A stretch of DNA of 50,033 bases, taken from NCBI RefSeq assembly GCF_900100665.1, contig NZ_FNCS01000022.1, positions 1-50,033 on the forward strand, written 5' to 3'. The notes beneath the pieces were generated by a model that was not told where the DNA came from, did not search any database, and saw only the letters and a program-made list of their open reading frames with translations. This DNA comes from Pelagibacterium luteolum. GTDB taxonomy: Bacteria; Pseudomonadota; Alphaproteobacteria; Rhizobiales; Devosiaceae. The position numbers and the translations under genes are program-made. Below are positions 19,308 through 35,237 of this stretch, piece by piece. Numbering within the stretch: position 1 is the first letter of the stretch; each line of letters starts with the position of its first letter.

Positions 19308-19529
19308 CTTCGCTCTCTCCCCCCACCCACAAGGTCGACATCGCAGGCTAACCTTCGCCTCAATGGCCCTCTAGGTACGTTACGCTCTTCGACAGTTAGT
19401 AGCGCACCTCCGTCCAGCCGCACATTCAATGGCCGAACTTCGCGCGACGATATCGTCCTTCCATCGCGCCGTGCCGCCACCGCGAACAGCACCAACACAG
19501 CACAGCACAGCACACACATATATACTATC

Positions 19530-19539
19530 TTGTATTCAA
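19530..19539. promoter_or_regulatory. Candidate GntR operator, TTGTATTCAA
   Basis: This near-palindrome, one mismatch from TTGTNNACAA, lies 48 bases before the GntR start codon. It overlaps a plausible -35 (TTGTAT), with TACCTT 16 bases on as -10. A second partial half site, TTGTATATGC, follows at 19542. The position in the divergent SDR-regulator interval suggests autoregulation. Related sites are at 24515, 28307 and 34966. Confidence 0.45.
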
Positions 19540-19586
19540 TTTTGTATATGCTACCTTAGAATGAGGTTTTATGCGAGAGGACGGAA

Positions 19587-20258
19587 ATGAAAACCGATGG
19601 TGAACACACCAATGCGGCCACAAAGTCAGGTCAAATTGCCGAACTCCTTCAAGAGAGAATTGCGAGCCAGATAATTGGACAAGGCACTCGGCTTCAAGAA
19701 GCCGAACTGGCCGCTGAGTTTTCATCTTCACGCACTGTCATAAGGGAAGCACTCGGTTCCCTGGAACAACGAGGACTAATTACACGGATACCCAACAGGG
19801 GCGCCATAGTAAAAAAGCTCGAGGTTGATGAAGTCGAAGAAATCTTTGAAGTTCGCGAATGGCTAGAAGCAATGCTCACCTATCGAGCTACGCTTAACGC
19901 CCCGGACGGCCACTGGCAGGCTTTTCACGGTATTTTCGATTTTGAACTCAAAAATCGCATAGCAAGTGGAGACATAAAATCCTACAATGACTGTTTGGAG
20001 CAGTTAAGGACTGAGACTCTAATCCAGTCACGCAATAAAATTGCTGTGCAATATGTTAACTTAATTCTTGACCGCGCTAGAGTTATAAAGAACAGAATCA
20101 CTCTTCTGCCTGGACGAGCCGAAGCTGGCCGGCAGATGCATGTCAGGATGCTGGAGTTCATGAATGAGCGAGATGCTGAAGGTGCCCAAGCGGTAAAGCG
20201 GGAGATCATTCGTTCGGCCCGCGCTCTATTTCAAAAATACCGTTCGCTCATCCTATGA
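19587..20258 (+). CDS. GntR-family transcriptional regulator (FCD type)
   Basis: This 223-residue regulator has an N-terminal winged helix (about 15-80) with the GntR signature: GTRLQEAELAAEF, then SSRTVIREALGSLEQRGLI and the wing IPNRGAIVKK. An all-helical FCD-like effector domain (about 85-210) follows. FCD regulators usually repress catabolic operons and are released by a small carboxylate or a pathway intermediate. It is the only regulator in the 18-35 kb island and sits divergently beside the SDR gene. GAGAGGACGG precedes the ATG. It is the best candidate to bind the four TTGTNNACAA-like sites. Confidence 0.92.
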   Translation: MKTDGEHTNAATKSGQIAELLQERIASQIIGQGTRLQEAELAAEFSSSRTVIREALGSLEQRGLITRIPNRGAIVKKLEVDEVEEIFEVREWLEAMLTYRATLNAPDGHWQAFHGIFDFELKNRIASGDIKSYNDCLEQLRTETLIQSRNKIAVQYVNLILDRARVIKNRITLLPGRAEAGRQMHVRMLEFMNERDAEGAQAVKREIIRSARALFQKYRSLIL

Positions 20259-20362
20259 ACCAAGGTTCCTGCAGACCGACGAACGATTGCTCCTCTTGAA
20301 AGCAATGGCCCCTGGAATATCCTCGGCTCATAAGGTCAAACTGCGAAGCGGCTACTCCAGTT

Positions 20363-21268
20363 TCAGGCGGGATGAAAGTTCGGAGCTGAATTTTTCCTGC
20401 CGTCTGATCTAAATATTTCTCTGATAGTAGTAATGTCTTCGTCATTGAGTCCGTATTCTGTTGCATATGAATAGAGGGAAGCGAAAAATCGAGCTGGAGA
20501 CTTTTCATAGGATGTCTCATTAGATAATTCGGCTGCCAACGAAAGGTCTTTCGCCGCCAGCGATAATCTAAAGAGGACGCTTTCGCGACTATTGCTCTGC
20601 AACCGGCTCGCGTGTTGTTCCAATGTTGCACTGCGCGCATTACCCGACATCAATGCTTGGACTAGCGGGCTGAATTCTACACTGTTGCGCTCGGCGAGCT
20701 CAAGCACCTCCGCAAGTAATGCAAGATGACCTAGGCTGAGAAGATTGTTAAGGGCCTTAACCGTGTGGCCCGCACCTAGCTTGCCAACGCGTGTGAAAGT
20801 ATCCCCCATCGCCGACAGAACCGGCATGGCACGCGTGATGACTTCACTTTCACCCCCTATAAAAAAAGATAAAGTTCCTGACTTGGCACCGGATACGCCT
20901 CGGACAACCGGCGCGTCGATGAATCCAACTTCTCTTTGAGCCAAGCGTTTCCCGATTAATCGAGTCGCAGCAGGAAGGCTGGTGGAGCAGTCGACTACAA
21001 TGCTGCTTGCCGCCATCGCCCGTCCTAGCCCCGAATCTCCCTCTATGACTGCCGAGACTTCTCGAGTGCCGGGTAGCATTAGTACTGCCAAATCGCTGCC
21101 TTGTGCGCATTCCGACAATGAACCCGTTTCATTCGCACCCGCCCTAATTAGCTCTTCAGCACCTGCTCGTCCGCGGCTAGCGAGAATACTCACGGAATGT
21201 CCAGCGCGCAGCAGATTGAGAGCCATCGGCGCACCCATACGGCCAGTTCCTATAAAGGCGACTTTCAT
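20363..21268 (-). CDS. 3-hydroxyisobutyrate dehydrogenase-family NAD(P)-dependent oxidoreductase
   Basis: This is a 301-residue beta-hydroxyacid dehydrogenase. The Rossmann motif GTGRMGAPMA is at 7-16, the substrate-binding segment DAPVVRGVSGAKSGTLSF at 118-135, and the catalytic lysine in GHTVKALNN is Lys171. Family members interconvert a 3-hydroxyacid and its semialdehyde; tartronate semialdehyde, succinic semialdehyde and sulfolactaldehyde reductases also belong here, so the substrate cannot be read from sequence alone. It lies 56 bases after tctA on the same strand and is probably the last gene of the tctCBA unit. It converges with the GntR gene. Confidence 0.9.
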   Translation of the reverse strand: MKVAFIGTGRMGAPMALNLLRAGHSVSILASRGRAGAEELIRAGANETGSLSECAQGSDLAVLMLPGTREVSAVIEGDSGLGRAMAASSIVVDCSTSLPAATRLIGKRLAQREVGFIDAPVVRGVSGAKSGTLSFFIGGESEVITRAMPVLSAMGDTFTRVGKLGAGHTVKALNNLLSLGHLALLAEVLELAERNSVEFSPLVQALMSGNARSATLEQHASRLQSNSRESVLFRLSLAAKDLSLAAELSNETSYEKSPARFFASLYSYATEYGLNDEDITTIREIFRSDGRKNSAPNFHPA

Positions 21269-21324
21269 ACAACAAACTCCATCCCGAAAGAGTTATTACC
21301 TCAACAATCTCAAATGCGCTGACT

Positions 21325-22824
21325 TCAGCTTATCGAGGCCAATGATCGTCTCCGATTACGCAAGCTGCTGAGTAATGACCAACCGACAACGCTGAGCGTG
21401 ATTGCGAAGAGCGCGACGGTTATTGGCTTGGAGACGAAAATGTCCCAGTTGCCATTGGAAACGACGAGTGCTTGGCGAAAACTTTCCTCCATGCGCCCCC
21501 CAAGAACTAGGCCGAGAAGAATTGGGGCAAGGGGAAAACCACCGGACCGCAAAAGCCAACCCGCTACGCCTAAAGCCAGCATAACCCACACATCGAAGAA
21601 ACTATTGTTGGTGCTATAGACCCCAGCCACGCTCACTACCAATATGGCAGCGGCAAGAAAAGGAAACGGGATCATAAGTATCCTAGCCCAAATTCCCACT
21701 AGAGGAAGATTCAGCACTACGAGCAGAACGTTCGCAAGATACAAACTTGCGATCAGCGTCCAAAAGAGCTCTGGTTGTTGCGCCACGAAAAGTGGTCCGG
21801 GCTGAATGCCTTGGATGATGAGTGCGCCCAATATTATCGCTGCTGGCGGGCTCCCGGGTATACCCAAGCTAAGAAGGGGAACCAGCGAGCCCGCAGCTGC
21901 CGCATTATTGGCGCTTTCTGGCGCTGCCACACCGCTCAGCGAGCCTTCGCCGATCGCTTGCTTGTTGCGTGAGAATCGCTTTTCTAGCCCATACGCCGCG
22001 AAGGCCGCCGGAGCAGACCCTGCACCAGGAAGCACACCAATTAGAAAACCCAACGGCGTCCCTCGCAGCATCGACGGAATGCAAGACAGAAGTTCATTAA
22101 ATGTTGGCAGAAGACGGCCGATTTTAGTCACTATTACTCCGGACATCTTTTGTTGCGCATTAATGAGGACCTCGCTAATTGCGAACAAGCCCATCGCTAC
22201 TGGAACTAGACCAAGACCGGAGTAAAGTTCGGGAAAGCCAAACGTCATTCTCGAGGCTCCGGACACTGGATCTGAGCCGGGTATTGTCAACAGCAATCCA
22301 AAAGTGGCCATACAAAGAGCCTTGACGATCGAACCTGTTCCCAATGCGGATACCAGCACCAGACCTAATATCAAAAGCGCAAGCGTTTCGGTGGGACCAA
22401 ACTGTAGCGCAAACGGCACGATGGTTTCGCTGAACAGCATCAGACCCAATGTACCGACCGTCCCACCCACGAAGGATGCAATTGCGGCTATGGCAAGAGC
22501 GGTCCCCGCTCTGCCACTCTTGGCTAGCTTATTGCCGTCTAGTGTTGTTGCGGCAGCACCCGGATCGCCGGGGATGTTCAGCAATATCGCCGAAATGGAA
22601 TTGCCGTATTGGGTTCCATAAAAGATACCGCAGAGCATTATCAGTGCTTGGGCCGACGAAAGGGTGTAAGTGAGAGGTAAAAGCAGTGCCATACCTGCTA
22701 ATGGTCCAAGCCCCGGCAGTACGCCAATTAGCGTTCCTAAAGTAACGCCGAGCAGGCAATATGCGAGGACACTTATATCTAGCAAGGCCGCAAAGCCGTC
22801 AAGTAAACCGAAGGTGCTTACCAT
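21325..22824 (-). CDS. tctA: Tripartite tricarboxylate transporter, large membrane subunit
   Basis: This 499-residue polytopic membrane protein is of the TctA family. It has the repeated signature GTLIGVLPGLGP near residue 30 and GVLPGAGSAPAAFAAYG in the second half, plus GTQYGNSISAILLNIPGDP. About twelve hydrophobic segments are visible, and the family-typical length is about 500. Together with TctB and the binding protein it imports a small carboxylate or another anion, driven by an ion gradient. It is 15 bases downstream of tctB. Substrate specificity depends on the binding protein. Confidence 0.95.
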   Translation of the reverse strand: MVSTFGLLDGFAALLDISVLAYCLLGVTLGTLIGVLPGLGPLAGMALLLPLTYTLSSAQALIMLCGIFYGTQYGNSISAILLNIPGDPGAAATTLDGNKLAKSGRAGTALAIAAIASFVGGTVGTLGLMLFSETIVPFALQFGPTETLALLILGLVLVSALGTGSIVKALCMATFGLLLTIPGSDPVSGASRMTFGFPELYSGLGLVPVAMGLFAISEVLINAQQKMSGVIVTKIGRLLPTFNELLSCIPSMLRGTPLGFLIGVLPGAGSAPAAFAAYGLEKRFSRNKQAIGEGSLSGVAAPESANNAAAAGSLVPLLSLGIPGSPPAAIILGALIIQGIQPGPLFVAQQPELFWTLIASLYLANVLLVVLNLPLVGIWARILMIPFPFLAAAILVVSVAGVYSTNNSFFDVWVMLALGVAGWLLRSGGFPLAPILLGLVLGGRMEESFRQALVVSNGNWDIFVSKPITVALFAITLSVVGWSLLSSLRNRRRSLASIS

Positions 22825-22839
22825 TTTCCTGTCCGTCCT

Positions 22840-23337
22840 TTATAACGGGAGCGGGACCCCTAGAAGGATATAGAATATCACGTAGGCGAAACCTGTAATG
22901 ACCGCTGAAAACAGTAACAGCGACCATTTGCGCCACGAGAAAATCAGCGCAATCGCCGTTACGAAAAAAAACGTCGAAACAACATATCCAATGCTTCTCA
23001 TAATCGGGACATAGGACACTAACAACGTTATTATCAGTAAGGGATCTACGAGATTTCTGAATTTTGGTACATTTGCAGTCTGTTTATTCTCTGAGGCTGC
23101 GGTTCTCGCCAGCGTGAGTTGTTCGAATATACTGATCGCCGCGAATACGGTCATTGAGCCACCGAACAGCAATGCGGCAAAGCCCGCACCGGGTCTCTGC
23201 ATACTTCCTACGCCGAGCGAGAGCGCTTCCGTCACGACAAAGATTCCGAGAGTGACCACTCCCAGCGCAACGCTCAGTTCCGGAACTGACGAAACCAGAC
23301 GACCGAGACGTGGACCTATTCTGTTTTCACGCGCCAT
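22840..23337 (-). CDS. tctB: Tripartite tricarboxylate transporter, small membrane subunit
   Basis: This 165-residue membrane protein has four hydrophobic segments (about 20-40, 50-72, 98-115 and 120-160), as expected for the poorly conserved TctB subunit. The call rests mainly on its place between tctC and tctA and on length and topology. The GxGAGFAALLFGG-like segment (GAGFAALLFGGSM) at the second helix agrees with the family. The spacing to the neighbouring genes (15 and 60 bases) supports one operon. Confidence 0.88.
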   Translation of the reverse strand: MARENRIGPRLGRLVSSVPELSVALGVVTLGIFVVTEALSLGVGSMQRPGAGFAALLFGGSMTVFAAISIFEQLTLARTAASENKQTANVPKFRNLVDPLLIITLLVSYVPIMRSIGYVVSTFFFVTAIALIFSWRKWSLLLFSAVITGFAYVIFYILLGVPLPL

Positions 23338-23397
23338 CTTTTCCTCGTGGCTAAGAACGGGCCAATGACTGAGTCAATGGCCCGCCCGCTCCAGTAG

Positions 23398-24387
23398 CTA
23401 CTCGTTGCTGGCAAGTATTTCGCCAAACAGTTCGAATTGCTCGTCTAAGAAGGCTATTGCGTCATCGCCAGCCAAAGCCATGTGGCCAAAGGCGAATTCA
23501 TCGAGAAAGTCCATGTATTCTTCATCCTGAGCGGCGGCAAAGAAAGCGTCGCGGAGTATCTCGAGTTCTTCCGAAGGAAGCCCTTTGGGCGCAAGGACAA
23601 CTCTAAACGCGCCCACGGGCGGAAAGTCGGTAGTGATACCGGCCTCATCATAGGTCGGAACATCCGGAATTTGAGCCATGCGTTCAGATGATCCAACAGC
23701 CAGCACTCGCACGGTTCCTGCATTCAGATGAGAATAAACTTCACCTAGGCTAACTCCGACAGACTCCACATGGTCGCCCAGAAGGGAAGTCACAGCTTCG
23801 GCCGCCCCACCTGGAAATGGCACAATATTCAGATCGAGACCCGACTGCTCTTCAAAAACACGAGCAGCGACGTGCCAAGCCCCTTGCGGAGGCGTTGTAC
23901 CGATAGTTAGCTGGCCAGGATTATTCTTCGCCCGCTCCACATAATCCTCGATCGTCTGCAATTCAGAGTCTGCTGCGACCGTAATGACGGGCGGATCGAA
24001 GTTGATAAGTCCAACTACGTCGAAATCTTCGTGAGACAAATCAGCGATGCCCAGGTGTTGTGCTGTAGCGATTGGGGTGGCAGCGGTCACAAGCGTGTAG
24101 CCGTCAGGTGCAGAGCGCATTGCCTCCATCATCCCAGGAATAGAGCCCCCCCCGGGCCGATTCTCTGGTACAATCGATACCCCGAGACCGTCCTCAGCGG
24201 CCATTGAAGCACGACGAGCCGCTTGATCGGTACCACCGCCAGCAGCAAACGGAATAATCATCGTTATTTCGTGCTCAGGAAAGCTCTGCGCACTAGCTGA
24301 TTGGGCGGCGACGATCATTGTGCACCCTACCGCCACTGCGATCAAACCTCTGGCGGGACGCAGTCCCCGTGTAATTTGCATATACAT
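23398..24387 (-). CDS. tctC: Tripartite tricarboxylate transporter binding protein (Bug family)
   Basis: This 329-residue periplasmic solute-binding protein is of the Bug/TctC family. It has a signal peptide ending ASAQS, then ITMIIPFAAGGGTDQAARR, the loop that holds the ligand carboxylate in this family. Other family segments are IGTTPPQGAWH, ALLGDHVESVG-like and FPPVGAFRVVLAPKGLP. The ATG at 24387 is preceded by GGAGGAG, 6 bases away. It is the first gene of the tctCBA-dehydrogenase unit. A candidate GntR operator lies 128 bases upstream. The ligand cannot be deduced. Confidence 0.93.
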   Translation of the reverse strand: MYMQITRGLRPARGLIAVAVGCTMIVAAQSASAQSFPEHEITMIIPFAAGGGTDQAARRASMAAEDGLGVSIVPENRPGGGSIPGMMEAMRSAPDGYTLVTAATPIATAQHLGIADLSHEDFDVVGLINFDPPVITVAADSELQTIEDYVERAKNNPGQLTIGTTPPQGAWHVAARVFEEQSGLDLNIVPFPGGAAEAVTSLLGDHVESVGVSLGEVYSHLNAGTVRVLAVGSSERMAQIPDVPTYDEAGITTDFPPVGAFRVVLAPKGLPSEELEILRDAFFAAAQDEEYMDFLDEFAFGHMALAGDDAIAFLDEQFELFGEILASNE

Positions 24388-24514
24388 TGTATTCTCCTCC
24401 TTCTCAGTGTGAAGATACTCCTGGGATCCGGCGCGTGTCGTCAGGTCAAGAGCCCTCCTTACGAAACTCATTCTAACAGAAAAAACCTTTTTGTGAACTT
24501 ATCGCGATACATTT

Positions 24515-24524
24515 TTGCATACAA
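24515..24524. promoter_or_regulatory. Candidate GntR operator, TTGCATACAA
   Basis: This lies between the tctC start and the end of the upstream gene, in an AT-rich interval. It differs from the perfect palindrome TTGTNNACAA by one base. It is placed to control tctC-tctB-tctA and the dehydrogenase. Confidence 0.45.
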
Positions 24525-24551
24525 TTTAATTTTTCCCACCTCCCGCTTAGG

Positions 24552-24923
24552 CTAGTCAGCATTCTTGCCAATTTCCTCAACAAGAATTGGCACACCGACG
24601 TTGAACGCATGTATGCCGATGAGCGACGATAGCTGGAGGCACTCCACGATCTCCTCGCGTGTCGCCCCAACTTTGAGTGCATTTTGAATGTGGCGCCGGA
24701 CACCTGGCTCATACATGTGTGTAGTAGATGCGTTAACCGCGATGAGTATTAGTTCCTTTACCTTATTGGGCAGGGGGCCCCTGGCCTGCGGCACCGAACG
24801 AAAATTAAGATAGGCCTCAAGAAAATCGGGGTCGATTTCCCTGAACGTGTCCCATAGATTATTCCAGTCCCCACTTTTGCGGTGTTCATCTGTTTTCGGG
24901 TAATTTTCTTTTGAACCGGCCAT
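24552..24923 (-). CDS. Carboxymuconolactone decarboxylase-family protein
   Basis: This 123-residue alpha-helical protein is of the CMD/AhpD-like family. The conserved block NKVKELILIAVNASTTHM is followed by YEPGVRRHIQNALKVGATRE and the region IGIHAFNVGVPIL. The redox CxxC of AhpD is absent, so it belongs to the gamma-carboxymuconolactone-decarboxylase side of the family, for which many members have no known reaction. It is 11 bases after the GMC oxidoreductase gene and so part of the ThDP enzyme-GMC-CMD transcription unit. A role acting on a small acid or lactone is inferred only from that context. Confidence 0.88.
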   Translation of the reverse strand: MAGSKENYPKTDEHRKSGDWNNLWDTFREIDPDFLEAYLNFRSVPQARGPLPNKVKELILIAVNASTTHMYEPGVRRHIQNALKVGATREEIVECLQLSSLIGIHAFNVGVPILVEEIGKNAD

Positions 24924-24934
24924 TAACTTTTACC

Positions 24935-26554
24935 TCACTTTGCGTCTTTGAGGATCATATCTGCTCCCTTTTCTCCAACCATGATTGCCGCAGCATTTGT
25001 GTTGGAGGAGGGTATTGTGGGAAATACAGAAGCATCTACTACCCGTAGATTTGTGACCCCCCGGACTCGCAGGTTTTGATCGACAACTCCATCCCCATTG
25101 GCCCCCATTCGGCAGCTTCCTACCGTGTGCCAGGCTGTCTGGCCTGTTTGCTTGGCATACTTCAGCAGCATGTCATCGCTTTCTGTTGGCAGATCAGGAG
25201 TAGTTTCCTTGACGATGACGCGTTGCATGGTAGGATTTTCGGCGATGCGGCGCACCATTCGAAGGATACGTACTGCTGTCTTAGTGTCCTCCGGATGATC
25301 AAAATAGTTGGGATCTATCGCTGGCAAAACCATGGGATCTGGATTCTTTATGTGGACGCTTCCTCTGGACTTGGGACTGAGTTGAAATCCACCAATGGTA
25401 AATCCTGAGAAAGCATCAATGCCCGCTCCCGGCGTTCTTGAGTAGCGGTCCTTTCCGCTGATCTGATAGAGACGAATCATCACGTCAGGAGCATCTAGAT
25501 CGCCATCCGATCTCGCAATCGCGTGTGCCGTGGATGAGGTACCAGCCAAAAGGCCTCGACGGAAAAGGAGATACTGTAAACCTGACTTAACTTTCACATC
25601 GATGCGACGCATTAGGTCGTTGATTGTCCGGTCAATCCGGCTGTGATAGGTGCGCCGAACTTGCAGATGGTCGCTGAGGTTCTCGCCCACCTGATCGTTC
25701 TCCACCAACGGCTCTATTCCATGCTCGGCCAGGAGTGCACCACCGCCGATTCCTGACAGCTCGAGCAGATGTGGGGACATAATCGCCCCACCGCAGAGAA
25801 TGACCTCGCATCTTGCTTCGGCGAACTTTTCTGCGCCACGGGCACGGTATTGAACGCCGGCTGCGCGTCGTCCTTCAAAAATCACTTTGGTAGCTTGACA
25901 TTCGGTCATGACGCTGAGGTTTTTCCTCCGCCGCCTTCCACTCAAGTACGCAACTGAAGTTGAGCATCGGCGACCATTGTAGGCGGTTTGCTCTAGATAC
26001 CTAACTCCCTCGTAACTACCAGCATTATAGTCCTCGGTTTCAGGTATCCCGGCATCCAAACATCCTGCGATGAACGCGTCAGAAATTTTATCGGGATCAC
26101 GATGCTTCAGATCGGAGATGCGCACAGGCCCGTCGCTCCCCCTTGTTCCGTTCGAGGAATAGGGGTTGTTTTCTAACTTTCTGAAATAGGGCAATACATC
26201 ATCGAACGACCAACCCGTCAGGCCTTCCTCTGCCCAGCTGTCAAATTGATTGGGGTCGCCCCATATGTACGCCATTCCGTTTATCGAGCTTGATCCACCA
26301 AGCACTCGACCTCGGGGACTGTAGATCTTCTGATTAGCCAGGTTTTTCTGAGGCTCACTGTAATATGGCCAGACGTATCTGTGATTGCTGAGCAGATTAC
26401 CCACACCAAGCGGTATGTGGAACCATACGTTTTTGTCTTCTTCTCCCGCTTCAAGCAGGAGAACTGAGTATCGGCCACTTTCGCTTAGCCGTGCCGCAAC
26501 AGTGGCACCCGCCGATCCGGCCCCCACGACAATAAAATCGAAGCTGTCGACCAT
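24935..26554 (-). CDS. GMC-family FAD-dependent alcohol/choline dehydrogenase-like enzyme
   Basis: This 539-residue flavoprotein starts with the FAD motif VVGAGSAGATVAARL. It contains the GMC signatures GRVLGGSSSINGM and GAIMSPHLLELSGIG. C-terminal catalytic elements are HTVGSCRMG, with the active-site His, and SSNTNAAAIM. The family oxidises primary alcohols such as choline; the isethionate dehydrogenase IseJ is also a member, which matters beside the Xsc-like enzyme. The ATG at 26554 has GGAG 8 bases upstream and begins 2 bases after the stop of the upstream gene. A TTG overlapping that stop is possible but less likely. Confidence 0.93.
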   Translation of the reverse strand: MVDSFDFIVVGAGSAGATVAARLSESGRYSVLLLEAGEEDKNVWFHIPLGVGNLLSNHRYVWPYYSEPQKNLANQKIYSPRGRVLGGSSSINGMAYIWGDPNQFDSWAEEGLTGWSFDDVLPYFRKLENNPYSSNGTRGSDGPVRISDLKHRDPDKISDAFIAGCLDAGIPETEDYNAGSYEGVRYLEQTAYNGRRCSTSVAYLSGRRRRKNLSVMTECQATKVIFEGRRAAGVQYRARGAEKFAEARCEVILCGGAIMSPHLLELSGIGGGALLAEHGIEPLVENDQVGENLSDHLQVRRTYHSRIDRTINDLMRRIDVKVKSGLQYLLFRRGLLAGTSSTAHAIARSDGDLDAPDVMIRLYQISGKDRYSRTPGAGIDAFSGFTIGGFQLSPKSRGSVHIKNPDPMVLPAIDPNYFDHPEDTKTAVRILRMVRRIAENPTMQRVIVKETTPDLPTESDDMLLKYAKQTGQTAWHTVGSCRMGANGDGVVDQNLRVRGVTNLRVVDASVFPTIPSSNTNAAAIMVGEKGADMILKDAK

Positions 26555-26556
26555 GC

Positions 26557-28248
26557 TCAACTCCGTTTGGCTCGATGAGCAAAGGAGTCGCGACGGAAGC
26601 TAAAGAGCGCCGCAGGATCGACTTTTACGTCCACAACAGCTGGACGGCCACAGTTCAATGCGGCTTCGACTGCCTCACCGACTTCCGAAGCATGGTCGGC
26701 CCGGAAACCTGCGGCGCCGTACAACTCAGCCAGTTTGTCGTAGGGTGGGTTGACAATGTCTGCTCCAATATAGCGTTCATTGAAGAAATCCCGCTGGTAA
26801 GCTTTTTCCGCACCCCAACAGCCATTATTCATGACGACAGTAACAGTATTGATTCCATACTGAACCGCCGTGCTGAGTTCGGAAGCAGTCATGCCAAATC
26901 CCCCATCGCCCATAAGGCTGACGACTGGTCGAGAGGGATCAGCAACTTTGATGCCGAGACCGGCCGCGAACGAAAATCCAACCAGCCCGAAGTCTAGCGG
27001 AGTAAAAAGACTATTTGGATGCCAGTAATTCAATGCATCGGTAGCTTGCAGGCAAAGAGTACCCGCATCCATGGTGATGGCAGCGTTGTGCGGCAGTACC
27101 TTCCGAAGCGTCTTAAAAAGGCCTGAAGGCTGCAGCGGATCAGTCATAATGGCTGCGGCATCACGTTGCTCCAGATAAGCGCTGCGGTGCCCCTTGAACT
27201 CTGTAAGCCAATCGTCTGCCATCGAACGCTCAGAGCGCTTTTCCAGCTCATCCGTAATCTGCTGTGCAGCAAGCGCTGCGTCGGCCCATATTCCAATGGC
27301 CACAGGAAAGAACCGGCCAATCGCAGTTGGTTCAATTTCAACTTGAATGATCGCAGCTTCACGATTGATATTATCGTAGGAGTAGAACGTCGAATTGAAG
27401 CCTACTCGCGTACCCAGTGCCAGTATTACGTCAGCCCTCTTGACCAAATCGGTCGCAACCTGATTGCCTCTCGGCCCCATTTGCCCTGCGTTCAGGGGGT
27501 GCCCAAATGGGACCGCATCCCCGTGCCCAGGAGACGTCACGAGTGGCGCCCCTACTTTCTCGGCTAGAAGGCAAGCTGCTTCAGAAGCTCGCGCGTTTTT
27601 TACGCCTGCGCCAGCCAGTATTACAGGCCGCTTTGCGTTACCAAGTAGCTCCGCCGCCCTCCGGATGGCATCGGGCTGGCCTGCAGGCAGCACGTGGGGG
27701 CGATAGCCAGAGGGAGCGGGAGCATCCCCATACTCGGCAGTTTGAGCAAGGACGTTTCGCGGCAAGTTGACGACCACGGGACCCTTTCTCGGCGTTAGTG
27801 AGACGCGAAAGGCTTGCCGTAACATTTCCGGAACACGGGAAGTCTCTGTCACGGTCCAAGTCTTCTTGGTGATCGGTGAGAAGAGCGCCTGTTGGTCTAC
27901 TTCTTGAAAGGCATCTCGACCGGCATGCTGCGTTGACAGGGATCCAGCGATGGCGAGAACAGGGGAAAACGCGGCCGAAGCTTGAGCCAGACCTGTCACC
28001 AAATTAGTTGCGCCAGGGCCATTCTGCCCGGCCAGAACAACGCCTGCATTCCCCGTGACCCTTGCATAGGCATCGGCCATGTGTGTGCCAGTACGTTCAT
28101 CACGAACACCAATAAGGTTGATGTCCGGCGCATCGTACAGCGCATCGAACATTTCCATGGTCGCCGAGCCAATAAGCCCGAACACATGTTGCACATTCTC
28201 GACCTGCAGTGCCTCGACGGCCGCCTGCCCACCGGACTTGAGTCCCAT
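26557..28248 (-). CDS. Thiamine-diphosphate enzyme, acetolactate synthase superfamily (Xsc-like)
   Basis: This 563-residue ThDP enzyme has three domains. The activating glutamate is Glu51 (VRDERTGTHMADAYA). The cofactor-binding motif is MGDGGFGMTASE, running to VVMNNGCWG. Residues 74-79 read GQNGPG, a variant I associate with sulfoacetaldehyde acetyltransferase (Xsc) rather than the SGPG of acetolactate synthases. The substrate is nonetheless not proven. The ATG at 28248 follows AAAGGG; the same frame continues upstream only through IS remnants. It is first in a unit with the GMC and CMD genes. An operator-like site sits 59 bases upstream. Confidence 0.9.
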   Translation of the reverse strand: MGLKSGGQAAVEALQVENVQHVFGLIGSATMEMFDALYDAPDINLIGVRDERTGTHMADAYARVTGNAGVVLAGQNGPGATNLVTGLAQASAAFSPVLAIAGSLSTQHAGRDAFQEVDQQALFSPITKKTWTVTETSRVPEMLRQAFRVSLTPRKGPVVVNLPRNVLAQTAEYGDAPAPSGYRPHVLPAGQPDAIRRAAELLGNAKRPVILAGAGVKNARASEAACLLAEKVGAPLVTSPGHGDAVPFGHPLNAGQMGPRGNQVATDLVKRADVILALGTRVGFNSTFYSYDNINREAAIIQVEIEPTAIGRFFPVAIGIWADAALAAQQITDELEKRSERSMADDWLTEFKGHRSAYLEQRDAAAIMTDPLQPSGLFKTLRKVLPHNAAITMDAGTLCLQATDALNYWHPNSLFTPLDFGLVGFSFAAGLGIKVADPSRPVVSLMGDGGFGMTASELSTAVQYGINTVTVVMNNGCWGAEKAYQRDFFNERYIGADIVNPPYDKLAELYGAAGFRADHASEVGEAVEAALNCGRPAVVDVKVDPAALFSFRRDSFAHRAKRS

Positions 28249-28306
28249 CTTGCTACCCTTTGGCTGTTTTATGCATACCACGGAGCAATAGCTCACATTT
28301 CCAACA

Positions 28307-28316
28307 TTGTAAACAT
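28307..28316. promoter_or_regulatory. Candidate GntR operator, TTGTAAACAT
   Basis: One mismatch from TTGTNNACAA, 59 bases upstream of the Xsc-like gene. On the minus strand it is preceded by TTTTGTG at the same spacing as in front of the second ThDP gene (site at 34966), so 17 of 25 positions agree between the two promoters. On that strand it contains TACAAT, a possible -10. Confidence 0.5.
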
Positions 28317-28474
28317 TCTTGCGCACAAAATTGGATATGTTTGAATGTCGTTTTTTGTTGGGGCTGACTCGTCGCTGCGAAGCAATGAATCCTGAGAAAT
28401 TCACACTCACCCGCGAATGGTTTAATGAGGGCGCATGAAGGGCCTCAGTCGCTCCGTAAGCGCTTTGCCGGCCC

Positions 28475-28543
28475 CTATGCGGCGAGGCTTGACGATTGTT
28501 TGAAGGCCCATGACATGAGCTCTTCAATACGGCTTTTCGGGTG
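28475..28543 (-). pseudogene. Possible C-terminal scrap of an IS66 transposase
   Basis: A short frame ends with [19 protein letters not shown] followed by a stop, like the last 20 residues of IS66 TnpC proteins (SRIxELxPW). Nothing upstream in the frame supports it, so it would be a scrap left at the edge of the IS graveyard. Confidence 0.3.
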
Positions 28544-28599
28544 GCAGTCGAGCAAAGCCCGGTGGGTGCCCATGATTGGTCTGCGGGGTTCACTTCGTT

Positions 28600-29026
28600 T
28601 CGCAATGGTGCCGATTGGTGTTTCAGAAACAGGAATAACCGACATGGCGATCGCTCGAGCTTGCATCCGCAATGGGCCCGAGGGCGCTTCTTCAACGTTG
28701 TGGATCTGGTCAATAAGCTCGAGGCCGAGACACGCGCTGGAAGGCAGGGACGGCTGGCGGGGTATATGGGACGCAAGGACTTCGTCATTCTCGATGAACC
28801 CGGGTATCTCCCCTTCGCGCAGTCAGGCGGCCAATTTCTCTTCCATCTCATCAGTCGGCTTTACGAGATGACCTCCGTCATCGTCACCACCAACCTCACC
28901 TTCGGCGAGTGGCCGACGGTCTTCGGTGACGCGAAGATGACCACGGCTCTTCTTGATCGGCTCACGCACCACTGCGATATTGTCGAGACCGGAAACGACA
29001 GCTGGCGATTCAAGAACCGAGCATAA
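28600..29026 (+). pseudogene. istB: IS21-family helper ATPase IstB, frameshifted C-terminal remnant
   Basis: The 3' two thirds of an IstB ATPase are readable. The Walker A region is degenerate ([19 protein letters not shown]), with the lysine lost. A one-base frameshift near 28680 is followed by [15 protein letters not shown], then the Walker [15 protein letters not shown] and the conserved tail [18 protein letters not shown] ending with RFKNRA. The gene start and istA are missing. The C-terminal half is still well conserved, so the damage looks moderately recent. It is not part of the IS21 element at the right end of the window. Confidence 0.85.
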
Positions 29027-29149
29027 ACCGCACTCGGTACTGCACCGCGGGTCAACCGGCTGCGCAGCCCCTGACGTTGCCCCCATCTTTTATTCAGCGT
29101 GACGTAGACTCCGGTGCTTGTTTTGGCCCTTTTGAGCCGGGTGGAAGAC

Positions 29150-29604
29150 GGGAGCTGGCGTGGAGCTGGCGTGGAGCTGGCCATTGAGCGTAGCGCCAGA
29201 TTCCGTCGGTGGGTGAAGGTGGTGGCGTATTCGATCGGGGTGAGCCAGCTCAGCCTCGAGTGGGGGCGATTTCCCTTGTCGTCGGCCCGCCATTCTCGAA
29301 GGGCAATGCGGGCGTAGGAGAGGCTCGGGAACAAGGTCTCGTTGAGCATCTCGTCTCTGAGCTTGCCATTGAACGATTCAATGAACGCGTTCTACATCGG
29401 CTTTCCCGGTGCGATTTAATGCCAATCGACCTTGTGCCGATCAGCAAAGCCCAGAATGGCATTGGAGGTGAACTCGGTGCCGTTGCCGCTGACAATCATC
29501 TTCGGCTTTCCTCGCGTTGTCATGAGGGTCTCCAGCTCTCGGGCAACCCGCAGCCCTGCAGCGCCTGATGCCGGTGTTGTTTTTGCTTCCCGATCGGCGG
29601 GCAC
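29150..29604 (-). pseudogene. IS3-family transposase OrfB, C-terminal remnant with stops
   Basis: This is an rve-type transposase tail: LMTTRGKPKMIVSGNGTEFT, then FADRHKVDWH, stop, IAPGKPM, stop, NAFIESFNGKLRDEMLNETL, and LREWRADDKGNRPHSRLSWL. Two in-frame stops replace expected Tyr and Gln codons. The second catalytic Asp, normally in SDNGTEF, reads Gly. It is clearly inactive. Its upstream part is replaced by an IS4-family fragment at about 29570-29604. Confidence 0.85.
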
Positions 29605-29935
29605 TCCGTCATTGTCGCGTGCCGGATTGACAGCATGGCGCGCTGGTCCTTGCCCTGCGCATTGCGGAACTGAACTTCGTGGGTGCCGCTGGACTGCACC
29701 GCCGCCATCACTTTGGCAACGGTGGTATCCCCATCCTCCGCAAGGCGATTCACACAGCTCCGGACCAGGAAGCTGGTTTCTAGCTCCTCGGCCAGGCAGT
29801 AGAGTTCATAGATATCGCTTTCCCGGTCCCGGATATGTACGCAGCGCTCCGGCGCGCCCGTCAGTTCGGTAGACAGTTGCAAATTGTCGAGCCAGCGCAT
29901 GCTCTCTTTGCTTTCGAGGCGCTTACGTCGCTCCT
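29570..29935 (-). pseudogene. IS4-family (Tn5-like) transposase, internal fragment
   Basis: The frame reads SKESMRWLDNLQLSTELTG, CVHIRDRESDIYELYCLAEE, VRSCVNRLAEDGDTTVAKVM and TMTECPPIGKQKQ, as in transposases of the IS50/Tn5 branch of IS4. DRESDIYEL carries one of the catalytic aspartates. The N-terminal third and the C-terminal third with the catalytic Glu are absent. It abuts the IS3 remnant, so two elements were joined by insertion or deletion. Confidence 0.8.
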
Positions 29936-30237
29936 AACACTTGAGCAAAGATAGAGCTGGCAGAACGGGTTGAAGCTGCCACCAACCCGCCGTCGTGGCC
30001 TCGTTCGATGGGCTGGGTGGAATTTCAGAAGATCATTCAAGACTGCTTCGGGAACGACTCTCACCACGTTATATTACTAGTAGCGAGCAGCTCATGCAGC
30101 TGGACACCCGCAAAAATTGTTGTTTTGGTTGCCGTAGGAATGTCATCTCGGCTTGGGGCTCCGTTTTGGTGCCGCTCTCGGCGATTTCGGCTGCAGTCGA
30201 TCCCCCATTCGGGGCCTTTCCCGGTTTCCGGGCAGAG

Positions 30238-30552
30238 TCATCCCACGATCGCCCGCTTTTCATGAAAGACCAAGCGGTCGAAATTGTAGGCCAGGTTGGC
30301 GAGCGTGAGTTTTGCCTCCGCGCGCTTGATGCCAATGGTGCGGATGAACAGCCCGAATTTGTTCTTCTGGTGGGCGAACACATGTTCGACCTTGGCGCGG
30401 ATTGCAGACTTGGCGGCGTTGGCTCGTGCCATGGTTTTGGGCACTGGCTTACCCTTGGGCTTGCGCCGGTGATCGTTAAGGCTGAACAGCGACTGTGGAT
30501 CCATATCGGCACTCCCCCATGGTCCACCGAACTGAATCATGAAGTCGCTCAA
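30238..30552 (-). pseudogene. IS5-family transposase, C-terminal remnant
   Basis: This is a C-terminal piece of an IS5-type DDE transposase, with AAKSAIRAKVEHVFAHQKN and FIRTIGIKRAEAKLTLANLA followed by YNFDRLVFHE, the usual end of these proteins. The upstream portion (to about 30640) survives only as frame-shifted traces. No inverted repeats are evident. It lies directly behind the YeiH gene stop. Confidence 0.8.
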
Positions 30553-30652
30553 CAGGCCAGGGTTTTTGCGGGTGTCCAGCTCGGCTTTTCTCGTATCAGT
30601 GCCGACCTCGACATCCCGGGCAGGATGCGCGTGTGATCACCGAATGAACGAA

Positions 30653-31687
30653 TTACTTCACGGCAACGATTGCCGCCAATGCCAATGCCGCTGTAGGAAA
30701 CAGGACTATCACCAGCTTTCTTTTGTCCACTTGCATAAGCGCGTTCAAGGAAGTCTTGATACCCAAGGCTGAAATTGCCACTGCCAAAAATACCTGCGAG
30801 GCATTTTGCAGTCCAGTCAGCATCCATGTTGGAATATTAAACACACTGTTGACTACGGCCAAAGCAAAAAACGCGATCACGAAGAGAGGAACTGTAGCCA
30901 ATCTTCCCTTTCTCTCCTCTCTCGGCAATAGCAAGGCAACAGATATGAGGACGACCGGCAGTAGCGTTACCCTGAACAACTTGGTTACGGTAGCTGAATC
31001 ACCTGCTTCTTCCGAGATCGAATAGCCTGCTCCAACAACCTGCGCAACGTCATGGATCGTCGCACCAAGGAGAAATCCTAGTTCCGCATCCGAAAATCCC
31101 AGGAGACTGTAGAAGACTGGATATGCGACCATAGCGATAGTCGAAAGTGCCGTCACGGCAATTACAGTGAAGATAACATCATTCTCATCGCTCTTCTGAT
31201 TGGAAACAACCGCTGCAATCGCAAGAGCAGCCGAGGCTCCACAAATCGCAACAGCTCCACCGGCCAGCATCCCAAACCTCCAGCGTTGCTTAAGTATCCT
31301 TGCGGACAGCAAACCAAGCGCAATGGTAAAAACAACTAATGTCGCCACGGTCGACATGCCGGTAACACCGAACGACTGAAATTCTTCGACAGATAAACGA
31401 GCGCCGATCAGGGCCACCCCCAGTCGAAGTAACGTTTTTGCGCTAAAATCGATTCCCGCTTCAAAATTGCTCTCTTCTCTTAGCAAGAAATTGAAGGTCA
31501 TTCCGATCAGCAGCGCAAGCAACATAACGGGCGCGCCAAAGGCACCTTCAATGAAACTTGCTGCGCCAGCGACTGTGGCCGCGAGTAAAACGCCTGGCCA
31601 AATCAGACGCAACTGCTTGTGCCCTCTGGCCGCTTCGACGCAGATTCCGTTTTCCCGGTGCAGAATATCCAACCGCCCCTCCAACAA
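30653..31687 (-). CDS. YeiH/UPF0324-family membrane protein, putative sulfate/anion exporter
   Basis: This is a membrane protein of about 344 residues with ten or so hydrophobic segments. UPF0324 features include the repeated helix pairs LLRLGVALIGARLS, GGAVAICGASAALAIAAV and LGATIHDVAQVVGAGYS. The family is annotated as putative sulfate exporter and appears in sulfonate catabolic clusters. No ATG lies near the N-terminus. A TTG at 31687 or 31675 is the best available, and a GGAGGGG sits between them. It lies 72 bases after the aldehyde dehydrogenase gene, probably in the same unit, followed by IS debris. Confidence 0.85.
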   Translation of the reverse strand: MLEGRLDILHRENGICVEAARGHKQLRLIWPGVLLAATVAGAASFIEGAFGAPVMLLALLIGMTFNFLLREESNFEAGIDFSAKTLLRLGVALIGARLSVEEFQSFGVTGMSTVATLVVFTIALGLLSARILKQRWRFGMLAGGAVAICGASAALAIAAVVSNQKSDENDVIFTVIAVTALSTIAMVAYPVFYSLLGFSDAELGFLLGATIHDVAQVVGAGYSISEEAGDSATVTKLFRVTLLPVVLISVALLLPREERKGRLATVPLFVIAFFALAVVNSVFNIPTWMLTGLQNASQVFLAVAISALGIKTSLNALMQVDKRKLVIVLFPTAALALAAIVAVK

Positions 31688-31759
31688 TAAGTGTATTTTA
31701 ACTAGGGTGTTGTTCGAGACCGTTTGTCCGCACTTGCTCGTGCTGGTCGTCTTGTCCGC

Positions 31760-33196
31760 CTAAAAGGCGGTTGTGCTGACTACTTTGGGTTTAAGATATC
31801 CTTGAAGCATCTCGATGCCGCCCTCAGTGCCGTAACCACTGTCCTTCCATCCCCCAAAAGGTAGTTCCGGCAAATGGAAAGGAACATCGTTAACTCCAAC
31901 CATTCCGACCTGCAAATCAGCACAAACACGCTCTTGTCGACCGATGTCTTGCGTAAAGACGTAGCTGGACAACCCAAAATCCAACGAATTAGCGGCTTCA
32001 ATGACCTGATGTTCGCTAGAGAACCTATTAACTGGAGCCACAGGTCCAAATGGCTCGCTCTGCATCATACTGCAGTTTGGATCGACCTCTGAAAGGACGG
32101 TAGGCGGGTAGTACAGGCCCCTGTTCCCGATCCTGCTACCTCCGGAGTGTATTTTAGCACCCGATTCCGTAGCTTCAGCTACCATTTGCTCGATTGCATC
32201 CAAACGTCTGCGGTTGGCTAGTGGCCCCATGGTCGTTTGAGGCCGAAGCCCATCCCCAAGAACAATCTTATTGGCTGCCTCGGTGAATGACGTCAAAAAG
32301 CGATCATAGGCAGCGTCCTGCACGTAGAATCGTGTTGGTGCTACACAGACTTGCCCAGCGTTCACAAACTTCCTGGCTGCAAGATAGCGAGCAACTTTCT
32401 CCACATTCACGTCATCGAACACAATTGCCGCGGCATGCCCACCTAGTTCCATGGTAGCCGGTTTCATGTACTTCCCGGCCATGGATGCCAAGAGCTTGCC
32501 TACAGGGACAGACCCAGTGAAAGTTACTTTTTGGATATGAGGCGAGGCGATCAGATGGGAGGAAATTTTATCGGGAATGCCAAACACCAAATTTAATGCC
32601 AGAGGTGGCACCCCCGCATCCAAGAGGACCTCTATAAGTGCTACACAGGAGGTCGGCGTTTCTTCAGCTGGCTTCGCGACGCAAGTACAGCCCGCTGCTA
32701 GTAAGGCCGCAATTTTCTTGGCCAATTGAACAATGGGGAAATTCCATGGCGTAAATGCAGCAACTACCCCTATCGGCTCAAACCTGACTTGGAAAACGTT
32801 GCCGACACTCCGTCCGGCATGCACTCTATCATAAAGCCGCCGCGCCTCGCCTGCCCCCCATTCCAGAAAATCCGCCGCGCGACGAACTTCTGCGACTGCC
32901 TCCTGTAAAGGTTTACCTTCCTCTATCGTTATGCTACGTCCGACGTCCTCCGCCCTGCCTCTAAGTTGCCGGGCCGCGTCGAACAATATTGTCCCCTTGT
33001 CCCACGCAGGAACTTTGCGCCATTCACCAAGACCGACTTGAGCAGCTTCTATCGCTGTATCAAGGTCTTCGGCAGCAGCCACACAGACTTCGCCTACCAA
33101 CTCTTCTGTAGCGGGATTATAGACCGGTAATCGTTCACCAGAACTACCTTCTGTCCACTCCCCCGCAATAAACAGCTTCGCTAAACTGCTAGACAT
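31760..33196 (-). CDS. NAD(P)-dependent aldehyde dehydrogenase
   Basis: This 478-residue ALDH is of the succinate-semialdehyde/GabD-like group. The cofactor site is FTPWNFPIVQLAKKIA, the general base Glu lies in MELGGHAAAIV, and the nucleophile is the Cys in NAGQVCVAPTR. The C-terminal SEPFGPVAPV and PFGGWKDSGYG are intact. It oxidises an aldehyde to an acid; relatives act on succinic semialdehyde, glutarate semialdehyde and sulfolactaldehyde, so the substrate is open. It starts 18 bases after the upstream ThDP gene with AGGTGG before the ATG, and is co-transcribed with it. Confidence 0.95.
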   Translation of the reverse strand: MSSSLAKLFIAGEWTEGSSGERLPVYNPATEELVGEVCVAAAEDLDTAIEAAQVGLGEWRKVPAWDKGTILFDAARQLRGRAEDVGRSITIEEGKPLQEAVAEVRRAADFLEWGAGEARRLYDRVHAGRSVGNVFQVRFEPIGVVAAFTPWNFPIVQLAKKIAALLAAGCTCVAKPAEETPTSCVALIEVLLDAGVPPLALNLVFGIPDKISSHLIASPHIQKVTFTGSVPVGKLLASMAGKYMKPATMELGGHAAAIVFDDVNVEKVARYLAARKFVNAGQVCVAPTRFYVQDAAYDRFLTSFTEAANKIVLGDGLRPQTTMGPLANRRRLDAIEQMVAEATESGAKIHSGGSRIGNRGLYYPPTVLSEVDPNCSMMQSEPFGPVAPVNRFSSEHQVIEAANSLDFGLSSYVFTQDIGRQERVCADLQVGMVGVNDVPFHLPELPFGGWKDSGYGTEGGIEMLQGYLKPKVVSTTAF

Positions 33197-33214
33197 CTAA
33201 CGCCACCTTTCAGA

Positions 33215-34918
33215 CTACATTGGGATCGCAATATCCGACATTGGCCGACCGCACCTTCTTGGAATTTTGACGTCTAGCAAGCACGGGACTTTAGCAGCCA
33301 TTAACTCGTCAACGGCCGCATCAAGATCATTTTCGCTCTCGACGTGGATACCTTTTGCGCCGACTAGCTCGGCAAATCGGTCAAGACGATGGGTTGGCAG
33401 CAGGCACTGAACTGATTCTCCGAATTCTGCCTCCTGGAGTCGAAGTTCGACGCCCCAAGCAGAGTCATTTCCGACAACCAGTTTGATCGGGAGGTTGTTC
33501 TCGACCGCCGTACTCAATTCCCATGACGCCTGCGCAAAGCCGCCGTCCCCCATGAAAGCGACGATCGGATCGCCCGGGAACGCCAATTGCATCCCGATGG
33601 CCTGTGGCAATGCGGCGCCCAGCGTTCCCATGACACTTCCATCCATCAGGTGCCCGCGCTGGAGGGCCGGGAAGTAGGTACGCGGCCAATGAACGAAGTC
33701 GCCCACGTCGACGGTCATGCCGGTTCGGCTGGTAAAATGCCGCGCTAAACTGCGGCAGATCTGTAGTGGATGAACGCCTTCTGATGGCGCGAACCCCTTG
33801 GCAATGTCTTTCCAGTCACTCTGCGAGCTGGCATGAAGTTCACGTAGGCTCGCAATCCATGCTTCTGTAGCCGGCTGCCGCAGGTCTTCAACTAAATCTC
33901 CCAGTTCGAGCAATATCTTGCCAATATTTCCACAGATTACCACATCCGATGGACGGCAGACGCTGGAGCGCAATGGATCGTCCACGATCTGAATGATCTT
34001 AGCATTCGATTGGAAAAGGGGCGGCTTTCCAAATAGCGTGTGGAAGTCGAATGAAGTTCCCACTAGCAGAACGAGATCCGCATGTTCCACAGCACGAAAT
34101 GTCTTATTGAACCGCGGATCGGCGTAGCCGAAGCAAACCTCGCCGTCGTCGGGCACCAATCCTCGGGCCAGCTCCACCGTAAACAAAGGAATTCCCAACG
34201 ACTTGAGGGACGACTGCATATGTTCTGCACCGCTATCCCAGTGGGCTCCGGAGCCAACAATTGCCACCGGCGCCTTAGCCGAGCTGAGTAAAGACCGCAC
34301 TCCCTCCAAATCGTGAGAGACTGAGCGTATTTTGGCAAAGTTAGATTTTCTCGGGTGCGGCTCGAAAGACGCCTCGTAGCCACTCGCTCGCGCGTTGAAC
34401 ACGTCCACAGGAAACGACAGACTTACCGGCCCCGGGGTTGGTGAAACTGCGGCCATGTAAGCGCGATAGAGCATCTCGGGCACTAGCCGCACATCTGTGA
34501 CCTCTCGTGCGAACTTGGTGACAGGCTCAACAATTTGCTGTTGATGCAGAACTTGAGTCCCACCACGGTCACGCTTGTCAATGGGCGCCTGACCGGAGAT
34601 GACAATTACGGGAGAACCAGCACCATGAGCTACCGCCAGGCCAGTCACCGCGTTTGTGTGCCCCGGGCCCCCGGTAACGATAGCGACCCCGACCTCCCCC
34701 GTCGCGCGCGCCCAGGCATCGGCCATGTGAACTGCCGCGGTTTCGTGTCTGGTGCCTACAACTTCGATACCTACTTGCGAAAGGGCATTGAAAATCGCAT
34801 TCACCTGGTCGCCGCAGAGAGCGAAAACCCGAGAGATCTCCAGCGCCTTTAGCCCACCAGCGAGTAATTGTGCACCAGTTTGGGCGTTGTGCGCCTCCGT
34901 GGTTAGCTTCGCATCCAT
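33215..34918 (-). CDS. Thiamine-diphosphate enzyme, acetolactate synthase superfamily (second, distinct)
   Basis: This 567-residue ThDP enzyme is only distantly similar to the one at 26557. Glu59 (GTRHETAAVHMADAWARATG) is the activating residue. TGGPGHTN replaces the GQNGPG loop, and MGDGGFAQASWE to VVGNDSAWG binds the cofactor. No FAD-type acetolactate synthase features are obvious, and no small subunit gene is near. It could be a 2-hydroxyacid/acyl lyase, decarboxylase or carboligase. A strong GGAGGAACC precedes the ATG. It heads the unit with the aldehyde dehydrogenase and YeiH, and has a perfect TTGTNNACAA site 48 bases upstream. Confidence 0.9.
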   Translation of the reverse strand: MDAKLTTEAHNAQTGAQLLAGGLKALEISRVFALCGDQVNAIFNALSQVGIEVVGTRHETAAVHMADAWARATGEVGVAIVTGGPGHTNAVTGLAVAHGAGSPVIVISGQAPIDKRDRGGTQVLHQQQIVEPVTKFAREVTDVRLVPEMLYRAYMAAVSPTPGPVSLSFPVDVFNARASGYEASFEPHPRKSNFAKIRSVSHDLEGVRSLLSSAKAPVAIVGSGAHWDSGAEHMQSSLKSLGIPLFTVELARGLVPDDGEVCFGYADPRFNKTFRAVEHADLVLLVGTSFDFHTLFGKPPLFQSNAKIIQIVDDPLRSSVCRPSDVVICGNIGKILLELGDLVEDLRQPATEAWIASLRELHASSQSDWKDIAKGFAPSEGVHPLQICRSLARHFTSRTGMTVDVGDFVHWPRTYFPALQRGHLMDGSVMGTLGAALPQAIGMQLAFPGDPIVAFMGDGGFAQASWELSTAVENNLPIKLVVGNDSAWGVELRLQEAEFGESVQCLLPTHRLDRFAELVGAKGIHVESENDLDAAVDELMAAKVPCLLDVKIPRRCGRPMSDIAIPM

Positions 34919-34965
34919 CCGGTTCCTCCATTCACCTCGAAATCATTTCAGTCTAGTAAGCATTA

Positions 34966-34975
34966 TTGTTCACAA
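34966..34975. promoter_or_regulatory. Candidate GntR operator, perfect palindrome TTGTTCACAA
   Basis: ATTGTTCACAAT at 34965-34976 is fully palindromic around its central TC. It is the strongest of four related sites. It lies 48 bases upstream of the ThDP gene; on the minus strand TTGCAC and TTACTA, 17 apart, could be the promoter with the site in the spacer. Confidence 0.55.
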
Positions 34976-35237
34976 TGTGCAACACAAAAATGCACTGATG
35001 CTGGAGACAATTGCCCCTGAGCCTCACCGATGCGGTGGTCAGGTAAGACGTTTCCAAGGAAGCCTCCGGGTTTCGCGTTATCGGTGGAAGAGAACGTTTC
35101 CGTTGAACGAACGCCCTCAAAGGCGAGAGCATCTATGGCCAACGTCCGTGCCTAGTCTGTGCTCCACCGAACAAGTGTTCAAACAGATTTCACACGAGAG
35201 TTGATTTGGATCCGATACCGTACTAGGGTTGGCGGAT

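Follow-up and report, generated by a model that had tools for sequence, protein, structure and literature searches.

Gene content of the island

We analyzed a 50,033-bp stretch of the Pelagibacterium luteolum genome (contig NZ_FNCS01000022.1; hereafter, the window), which contains a gene island with its own transcriptional regulator and a set of putative operators in front of its transcription units. The regulatory gene gntR (19587..20258, plus strand) encodes a 223-aa FCD-type GntR protein, with both Pfam domains scoring above cut-off (GntR, 3.7e-15, 55.8 bits; FCD, 1.4e-10, 42.1 bits). Among the 20 open reading frames (ORFs) from approximately 14 to 36 kb that were put to Pfam, it is the only GntR gene, as stated in a previous description of this DNA (below, the initial annotation).

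Three further transcription units are located on the minus strand, and their genes were assigned by Pfam. The first unit encodes a tripartite tricarboxylate transporter (TTT) and includes tctC for the substrate-binding protein (23398..24471; Pfam TctC, 4e-42), tctB (22840-23337; TctB), tctA (21325-22824; TctA), and, at the end of the unit, a beta-hydroxyacid dehydrogenase-like gene (20363..21268; NAD_binding_2 and NAD_binding_11). The second unit includes genes for a thiamine diphosphate (ThDP) enzyme, ThDP1 (26557-28248), a GMC oxidoreductase (24935-26560), and a CMD protein (24552-24923), and the third includes a second such enzyme, ThDP2 (33215-34918), an aldehyde dehydrogenase (ALDH, 31760-33196), and a YeiH-type exporter (30653-31687). 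The island genes had been described as separated by insertion-sequence (IS) debris, and such debris is indeed found between the two ThDP units (28541..30552), comprising an IstB_IS21 fragment (1.3e-38, 28541-29026), a DDE transposase fragment (DDE_Tnp_1, 1.3e-5, 30238-30552), and, at about 30212-30468, a match of 79.5% to the record of an IS5-family transposase.

Putative operator dyads and their arrangement in arrays

Four sites resembling the palindromic dyad TTGTNNACAA were reported in the initial annotation, and all of them are present as quoted: TTGTATTCAA at 19530 (upstream of gntR), TTGCATACAA at 24515 (tctC), and TTGTAAACAT at 28307 (ThDP1), each with one mismatch, and TTGTTCACAA at 34966 (ThDP2), which is a perfect dyad. 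A fifth dyad, TTGCGCACAA at 28319 in the ThDP1 promoter, was absent from that description. Altogether, the window contains 17 dyads with at most one mismatch, compared with a mean of 9.1 (sd 3.3) in shuffled sequences, and one of 100 shuffles reached 17. The four promoter regions together span 743 bp and contain five of these dyads, compared with 0.47 expected from dinucleotide shuffles of the same regions; none of 2000 such shuffles gave five dyads or put one in each of the four regions. The four promoter sites are real and not a product of chance. It had also been reasoned that equally good matches scattered elsewhere would speak against a shared operator, and for single dyads this is in part what we observed, with 12 of the 17 lying outside the four promoter regions.

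The operator had been conceived as one palindrome; it is better described as a row of dyads at 12-bp steps. We scored three units together at a fixed lag (triple score, maximum 24). The array upstream of gntR (19518..19551) has units at 19518, 19530, and 19542 and a triple score of 17, whereas the array upstream of tctC (24491..24524), with units at 24491, 24503, and 24515, scores 16. Both remaining arrays score 18, namely that upstream of ThDP1 (28295..28340; units at 28295, 28307, 28319, and 28331) and that upstream of ThDP2 (34942..34999; units from 34942, best triple at 34954). The TTTTGTG motif noted earlier at identical spacing in the last two promoters is shared as described (CACAAAA starts 17 bases past the site start at both 28307 and 34966), and it belongs to the next unit of the 12-bp array. 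The arrays stand directly upstream of gntR, tctC, ThDP1, and ThDP2, as proposed, but not of the short-chain dehydrogenase (SDR) gene that had been assigned to the same unit as gntR. The array is approximately 228 bp from the SDR start and close to gntR, so SDR is no more than a candidate member of the regulon.

In the 50-kb window, triple scores of at least 16 occur at ten positions at lag 12 and at none at lags 10, 11, 13, 14, 15, and 16. All ten positions lie within 19.0-35.0 kb, and those reaching at least 17 (19518, 28295, 28307, and 34954) are all inside island promoters. Three of the ten, each with a score of 16, are intragenic (19036-19071 in SDR, 24562-24597 in CMD, and 32373-32408 in ALDH), and they may be either auxiliary operators or chance occurrences. 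Across 1.03 Mb of other loci, scores of at least 16 were found at 22 positions at lag 12, compared with 14, 7, 5, and 12 positions at lags 10, 11, 13, and 14, respectively. Four of these positions reach at least 17 at lag 12, all in two loci (L103 and L104) that were chosen for matching a two-unit pattern.

The likeness of the four promoters could also derive from copying of one promoter segment, with no constraint by a regulator, and the IS debris does indicate past rearrangement of the island. However, BLAST between the regions returned only exact matches of 7-10 bases and one 12-base piece at 91.7%, with no shared flanks, which makes this origin barely credible.

Arrays upstream of gntR homologues in other genomes

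The nearest homologues of the island GntR (32-39% identity) were found in a genome of the same order (G065; L002/L056), in a betaproteobacterial metagenome-assembled genome (L021), and on Cupriavidus and Variovorax plasmids (L094-L099), and they carry 12-bp arrays before gntR. For 12 promoters (four from the island and eight from homologous gntR genes), the triple scores at lag 12 sum to 209, compared with 172 for the next best lag (9) and with a maximum of 160 for the same sum in shuffled sequences (300 shuffles at 18 lags). Lag 12 is the top lag in ten of the 12 promoters and the joint top lag in the other two. Several other lags also exceed the shuffles (for example, 169 at lag 10 and 168 at lag 15), so that real promoters differ from shuffled sequences in general, but lag 12 leads the rest by 37. 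In addition, the array columns are better conserved than their flanks in homologue pairs (29/34 vs 92/166, 26/34 vs 105/166, and 23/34 vs 77/166). In a relative of G065 (G838; L107), the gntR homologue has one in-frame TAG at about 1750, and the array is still conserved.

The promoters of 52 more distant FCD-GntR homologues all score below 17 at lag 12 (mean 11.94, not above other lags), and three of them reach 17 at lag 10. These controls were scanned over 200 bp plus 15, versus 150 bp in the test set, and some of them are richer in G+C, a difference that does not affect the comparison across lags within each promoter set.

Close homologues of the island proteins are too scarce for footprinting in close relatives. 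GntR matches at E < 1e-20 were found in two of 101 genomes (its own and G065), at 1e-25 or better in one of 398 genomes of the phylum (its own), and at 1e-20 or better in two of the three genomes of the G065 family, while ThDP2 matches at 1e-120 or better were found in one of 101 genomes (again its own). Among the ThDP1 homologues (L085-L090; 65-72%), upstream dyads with two mismatches are present only in L086 and L087, and no dyad with up to two mismatches was found upstream of the homologues in L085, L088, L089, and L090. Since these promoters lack good dyads, the arrays follow gntR and not ThDP1.

Cross-prediction of island and foreign promoters

We built a matrix from nine foreign gntR arrays with zero island sequence. 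Its six best matches in the window (19518, 34942, 28295, 34954, 24503, and 28307) all fall within the four promoters of the island, with the seventh lying in the gntR gene. The array upstream of gntR ranks first, that upstream of ThDP2 second and fourth, that upstream of ThDP1 third, and the tctC match at 24503 fifth. None of 500 column-shuffled matrices put all six in the promoters, three put five there, and most put one to three; base composition helps this result but does not suffice. When the foreign units were re-spaced, a period of 12 bp placed six of six matches in the promoters and a period of 10 bp placed four, with three or fewer for all other periods from 11 to 18 bp. If the sites were ordinary AT-rich promoter sequence, alike by chance or composition, one would expect the partial preference of shuffled matrices for these promoters and the 12 dyads elsewhere in the window, but not the failure of all 2000 dinucleotide shuffles to reach the observed counts or the restriction of high triples to lag 12. 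We consider this explanation highly improbable.

In the reverse test, a matrix built from the four island arrays placed the gntR promoter first in six of nine homologue loci. The exceptions are L021, L095, and L094, where this promoter ranks second, fourth, and fifth, respectively. In L094 and L095, the better matches are further arrays between gntR and divergent bio genes, and in L095 there is a further array approximately 184 bp before a TTT substrate-binding gene; the better match in L021 (3600; unit scores 6, 5, and 3) may be spurious. The extra 12-bp arrays of these Cupriavidus plasmids, associated with the bio cluster and the TTT substrate-binding gene, occupy 8661-8720 and 16724-16781 in L095 and 8675-8734 in L094. 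On 828,023 background positions, the island matrix reached a score of 20 twice and a score of 22 never.

Genome-wide scope and GntR paralogues

The perfect dyad TTGTNNACAA occurs 32 times in the 4.3-Mb genome, compared with 24 occurrences of the reversed control, and it is found approximately 120 bp or less from the starts of three paralogous FCD-GntR genes (L121, L122, and L123) out of 14 examined. On these grounds, the specificity of a single dyad for the island was rejected. As judged from sequence, specificity is carried by the row of dyads at a 12-bp step and not by the lone dyad.

A two-unit pattern with up to three mismatches matches 18 places in the genome versus five for the control. 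Four of them are in the window (28307, 34954, 34966, and, within the SDR gene, 19036), and the match at 28307, with two mismatches, is the joint best of three in the genome. The 14 places outside the window are all spanned by stop-to-stop frames of at least 132 codons, and none of the 11 that were re-scored with the island matrix exceeds 11.2. The regulon looks local, with the reservation that weak arrays, such as those of gntR and tctC, would escape the two-unit pattern.

Of the 17 GntR-like matches in the genome, 16 are paralogues of the island gene. The arrays might be bound by another FCD-GntR protein encoded elsewhere in the genome, the island gene being a bystander, and the presence of the perfect dyad before L121, L122, and L123 among so many GntR-like genes is in favor of this view. 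However, none of the paralogue promoters examined (14 of 16; the other two gave no local alignment) exceeds 16 at lag 12, homologues of the island gene are accompanied by such arrays in other genomes and on plasmids, and the best match of the foreign matrix is the island gntR promoter itself. We find control by another GntR protein decidedly unlikely. Upstream of the paralogue L123 (G000:C14, about 762700; locus 1333-1365), there is a perfect dyad together with a triple at an 11-bp step, so the pitch of the dyads may differ between regulators.

Promoters and proposed mode of regulation

A candidate tctC promoter (24470..24497, minus strand) consists of TTCACA, a 16-bp spacer, and TAGAAT, with TG before the -10 box; it has 10 of 12 consensus matches, versus a mean of 0.3 such promoters in shuffled sequences. 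Its -35 box lies inside the last array unit, with most of the array upstream of it, and its -10 box overlaps the listed ORF start at 24471. A transcript from this promoter would begin past that start, in line with the ATG at 24387, which is preceded by a GGAGGAG ribosome site and is probably the true tctC start.

The best explanation of these data, to which we assign a probability of about 82%, is that the FCD-type GntR protein encoded in this nutrient-use island controls a local regulon there, despite the IS debris by which the island is now divided, acting through the predicted arrays before gntR, tctCBA, ThDP1-GMC-CMD, and ThDP2-ALDH-YeiH. The one local regulon suggested in the initial annotation remains the best-supported reading: the arrays of the four island promoters and those before the gntR genes of the nearest homologues predict each other, and the 52 distant homologues are without arrays. 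The regulator would recognize TTGT-NN-ACAA dyads in rows with a 12-bp step, covering about 34-58 bp per promoter, with two to three dimers bound side by side on each row. Units 12 bp apart are separated by little over one helical turn, so that neighboring dimers would face similar sides of the DNA and could touch. An occupied row would cover the promoter and block RNA polymerase, and the array before gntR would provide autoregulation. The inducer that relieves repression could be a compound imported by TctCBA or one derived from that compound.

The same regulator and arrays might instead activate some of the units. Most of the tctC array is upstream of the candidate -35 box, a position that would suit an activator as well, and the other three promoters have no recognized -35 and -10 boxes; on the other side, one tctC unit overlaps the -35 box, and FCD-GntR proteins are mostly repressors. 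Activation of this kind seems to us unlikely.

Several observations weigh against the assignment of the four arrays to the island GntR. The 12-bp step was first spotted by eye in these same sequences and then tested, and the frame of the foreign units was set using the island TTGTNNACAA, so that the foreign matrix was tested on sequences not used to build it, yet not in a fully blind manner. AT-richness aids the matches, as column-shuffled matrices typically place one to three of the top six in the promoters, and a lone unit already places four of six there. The triple score of the tctC array is equalled by a stretch inside the CMD gene. Among the paralogues, L122 has a triple score of 16 at lag 12, and L123 one of 18 at lag 11. 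An independent profile model (R1) was made from eight foreign arrays in both orientations, with L099, the ninth, omitted as near-identical to L098; it ranked the window matches as ThDP1, tctC, gntR, an unrelated position at 37125, and then ThDP2. The genome scan with R1 gave no matches at E up to 10, a null result that we treat as uninformative, since the model carries just 0.627 bits per position. Finally, the promoter scan found no sigma-70-like site at gntR, ThDP1, or ThDP2.

The dyad core is common to FCD-GntR proteins, and we infer that a row with several weak units sets the island regulator apart. As a tentative generalization, to which we give somewhat less than even odds, a TTT-linked clade of FCD-GntR proteins, found on islands and plasmids of Proteobacteria, would read weak dyads repeated in rows with a constant 12-bp step through cooperative dimers bound side by side, and the row would insulate a mobile regulon from other FCD-GntR proteins that share the dyad. 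This suggests a possible answer to how a horizontally moved regulator escapes cross-talk with approximately 16 other GntR-like genes that may read nearly the same dyad. The analysis also makes a testable regulon of what was a guess from four short motifs, and it offers dyads at 12-bp steps as a rule for locating targets of this GntR clade across species.

Pathway and effector

Joining the four units as one inducible system would narrow the range of substrates to be considered for their pathway. ThDP1 is below the cut-off for sulfoacetaldehyde acetyltransferase (Xsc, TIGR03457; 422.1 vs 676.4 bits), and ThDP2, ALDH, the beta-hydroxyacid dehydrogenase-like protein, and the YeiH-type exporter (TIGR00698; 128 vs 233 bits) are each below all NCBIfam cut-offs shown. 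The combination of the Xsc-like ThDP1 with the YeiH exporter suggests a possible sulfonate route. A ThDP1 homologue (approximately 70%) in L087 (5502-13580) is accompanied by a gene for a CMD protein (62% to that of the island); aldehyde dehydrogenase, luciferase-like monooxygenase, alpha/beta hydrolase, and sulfatase genes are also present, and this gene set may hint at the pathway of the island.

In the GntR clade, R141 is invariant (alignment A2); at the corresponding position, two GntR proteins of solved structure carry a histidine, which we take to be an FCD metal ligand. The usual FCD metal site may have been lost in this clade; as a guess, loss of the histidine would be compatible with metal-free binding of an anion in the pocket.

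Comparison with known systems

Local regulons of FCD-GntR proteins are ordinary, and the island regulator has the features of this group: both domains, dyads of the TKGT/ACMA type, and predicted operators at its own promoter as well as at those of transport and catabolic units. FadR-subfamily (FCD) GntR regulators are described as binding AT-rich TKGT/ACMA palindromes with GT and AC 2-3 nt apart (PMC4494728). The island system resembles them in its GntR helix-turn-helix and FCD domains, in its GT-NN-AC dyad with TTGT/ACAA boxes, and in the location of its sites, which precede the regulator gene itself along with genes for transport and catabolism. The sites described there are for the most part one palindrome alone, paired sites in divergons, or a palindrome accompanied, at 7-12 nt from the center, by a weaker half-site box; in contrast, the island has at least three units at a fixed 12-bp step at every regulon promoter (PMC4494728). 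No description of 12-bp dyad rows was found in the literature searched, which had most subscription papers outside its reach.

A second comparison is provided by E. coli NanR, a FadR-type repressor that is reported to bind as three dimers cooperatively on a (GGTATA)3 operator (PMC8012715). Both regulators are FadR-type GntR proteins with three regularly spaced units in an operator shared by several operons. The NanR units are GGTATA direct repeats, whereas those of the island are TTGTNNACAA-like dyads at 12 bp. In addition, NanR cooperativity requires a 32-residue N-terminal extension, whereas the GntR domain of the island protein starts at residue 14, with 13 residues before it (PMC8012715).

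A third comparison is provided by the gntR-TTT clusters of the Cupriavidus and Variovorax plasmids (L094-L099), which share with the island a homologous GntR (32-36%) and 12-bp arrays. A TTT substrate-binding gene adjoins gntR in L096-L099 and is located within the cluster in L095. Unlike the island, these clusters contain CoA transferases, carboxyl transferases, and bio genes instead of ThDP enzymes, and in L094 and L095 a second GntR gene stands beside the first and could be the binder. In comparison with these systems, the predicted island array extends the usual FCD dyad into a longer row with regular spacing, on which, by analogy with NanR, binding may be cooperative.

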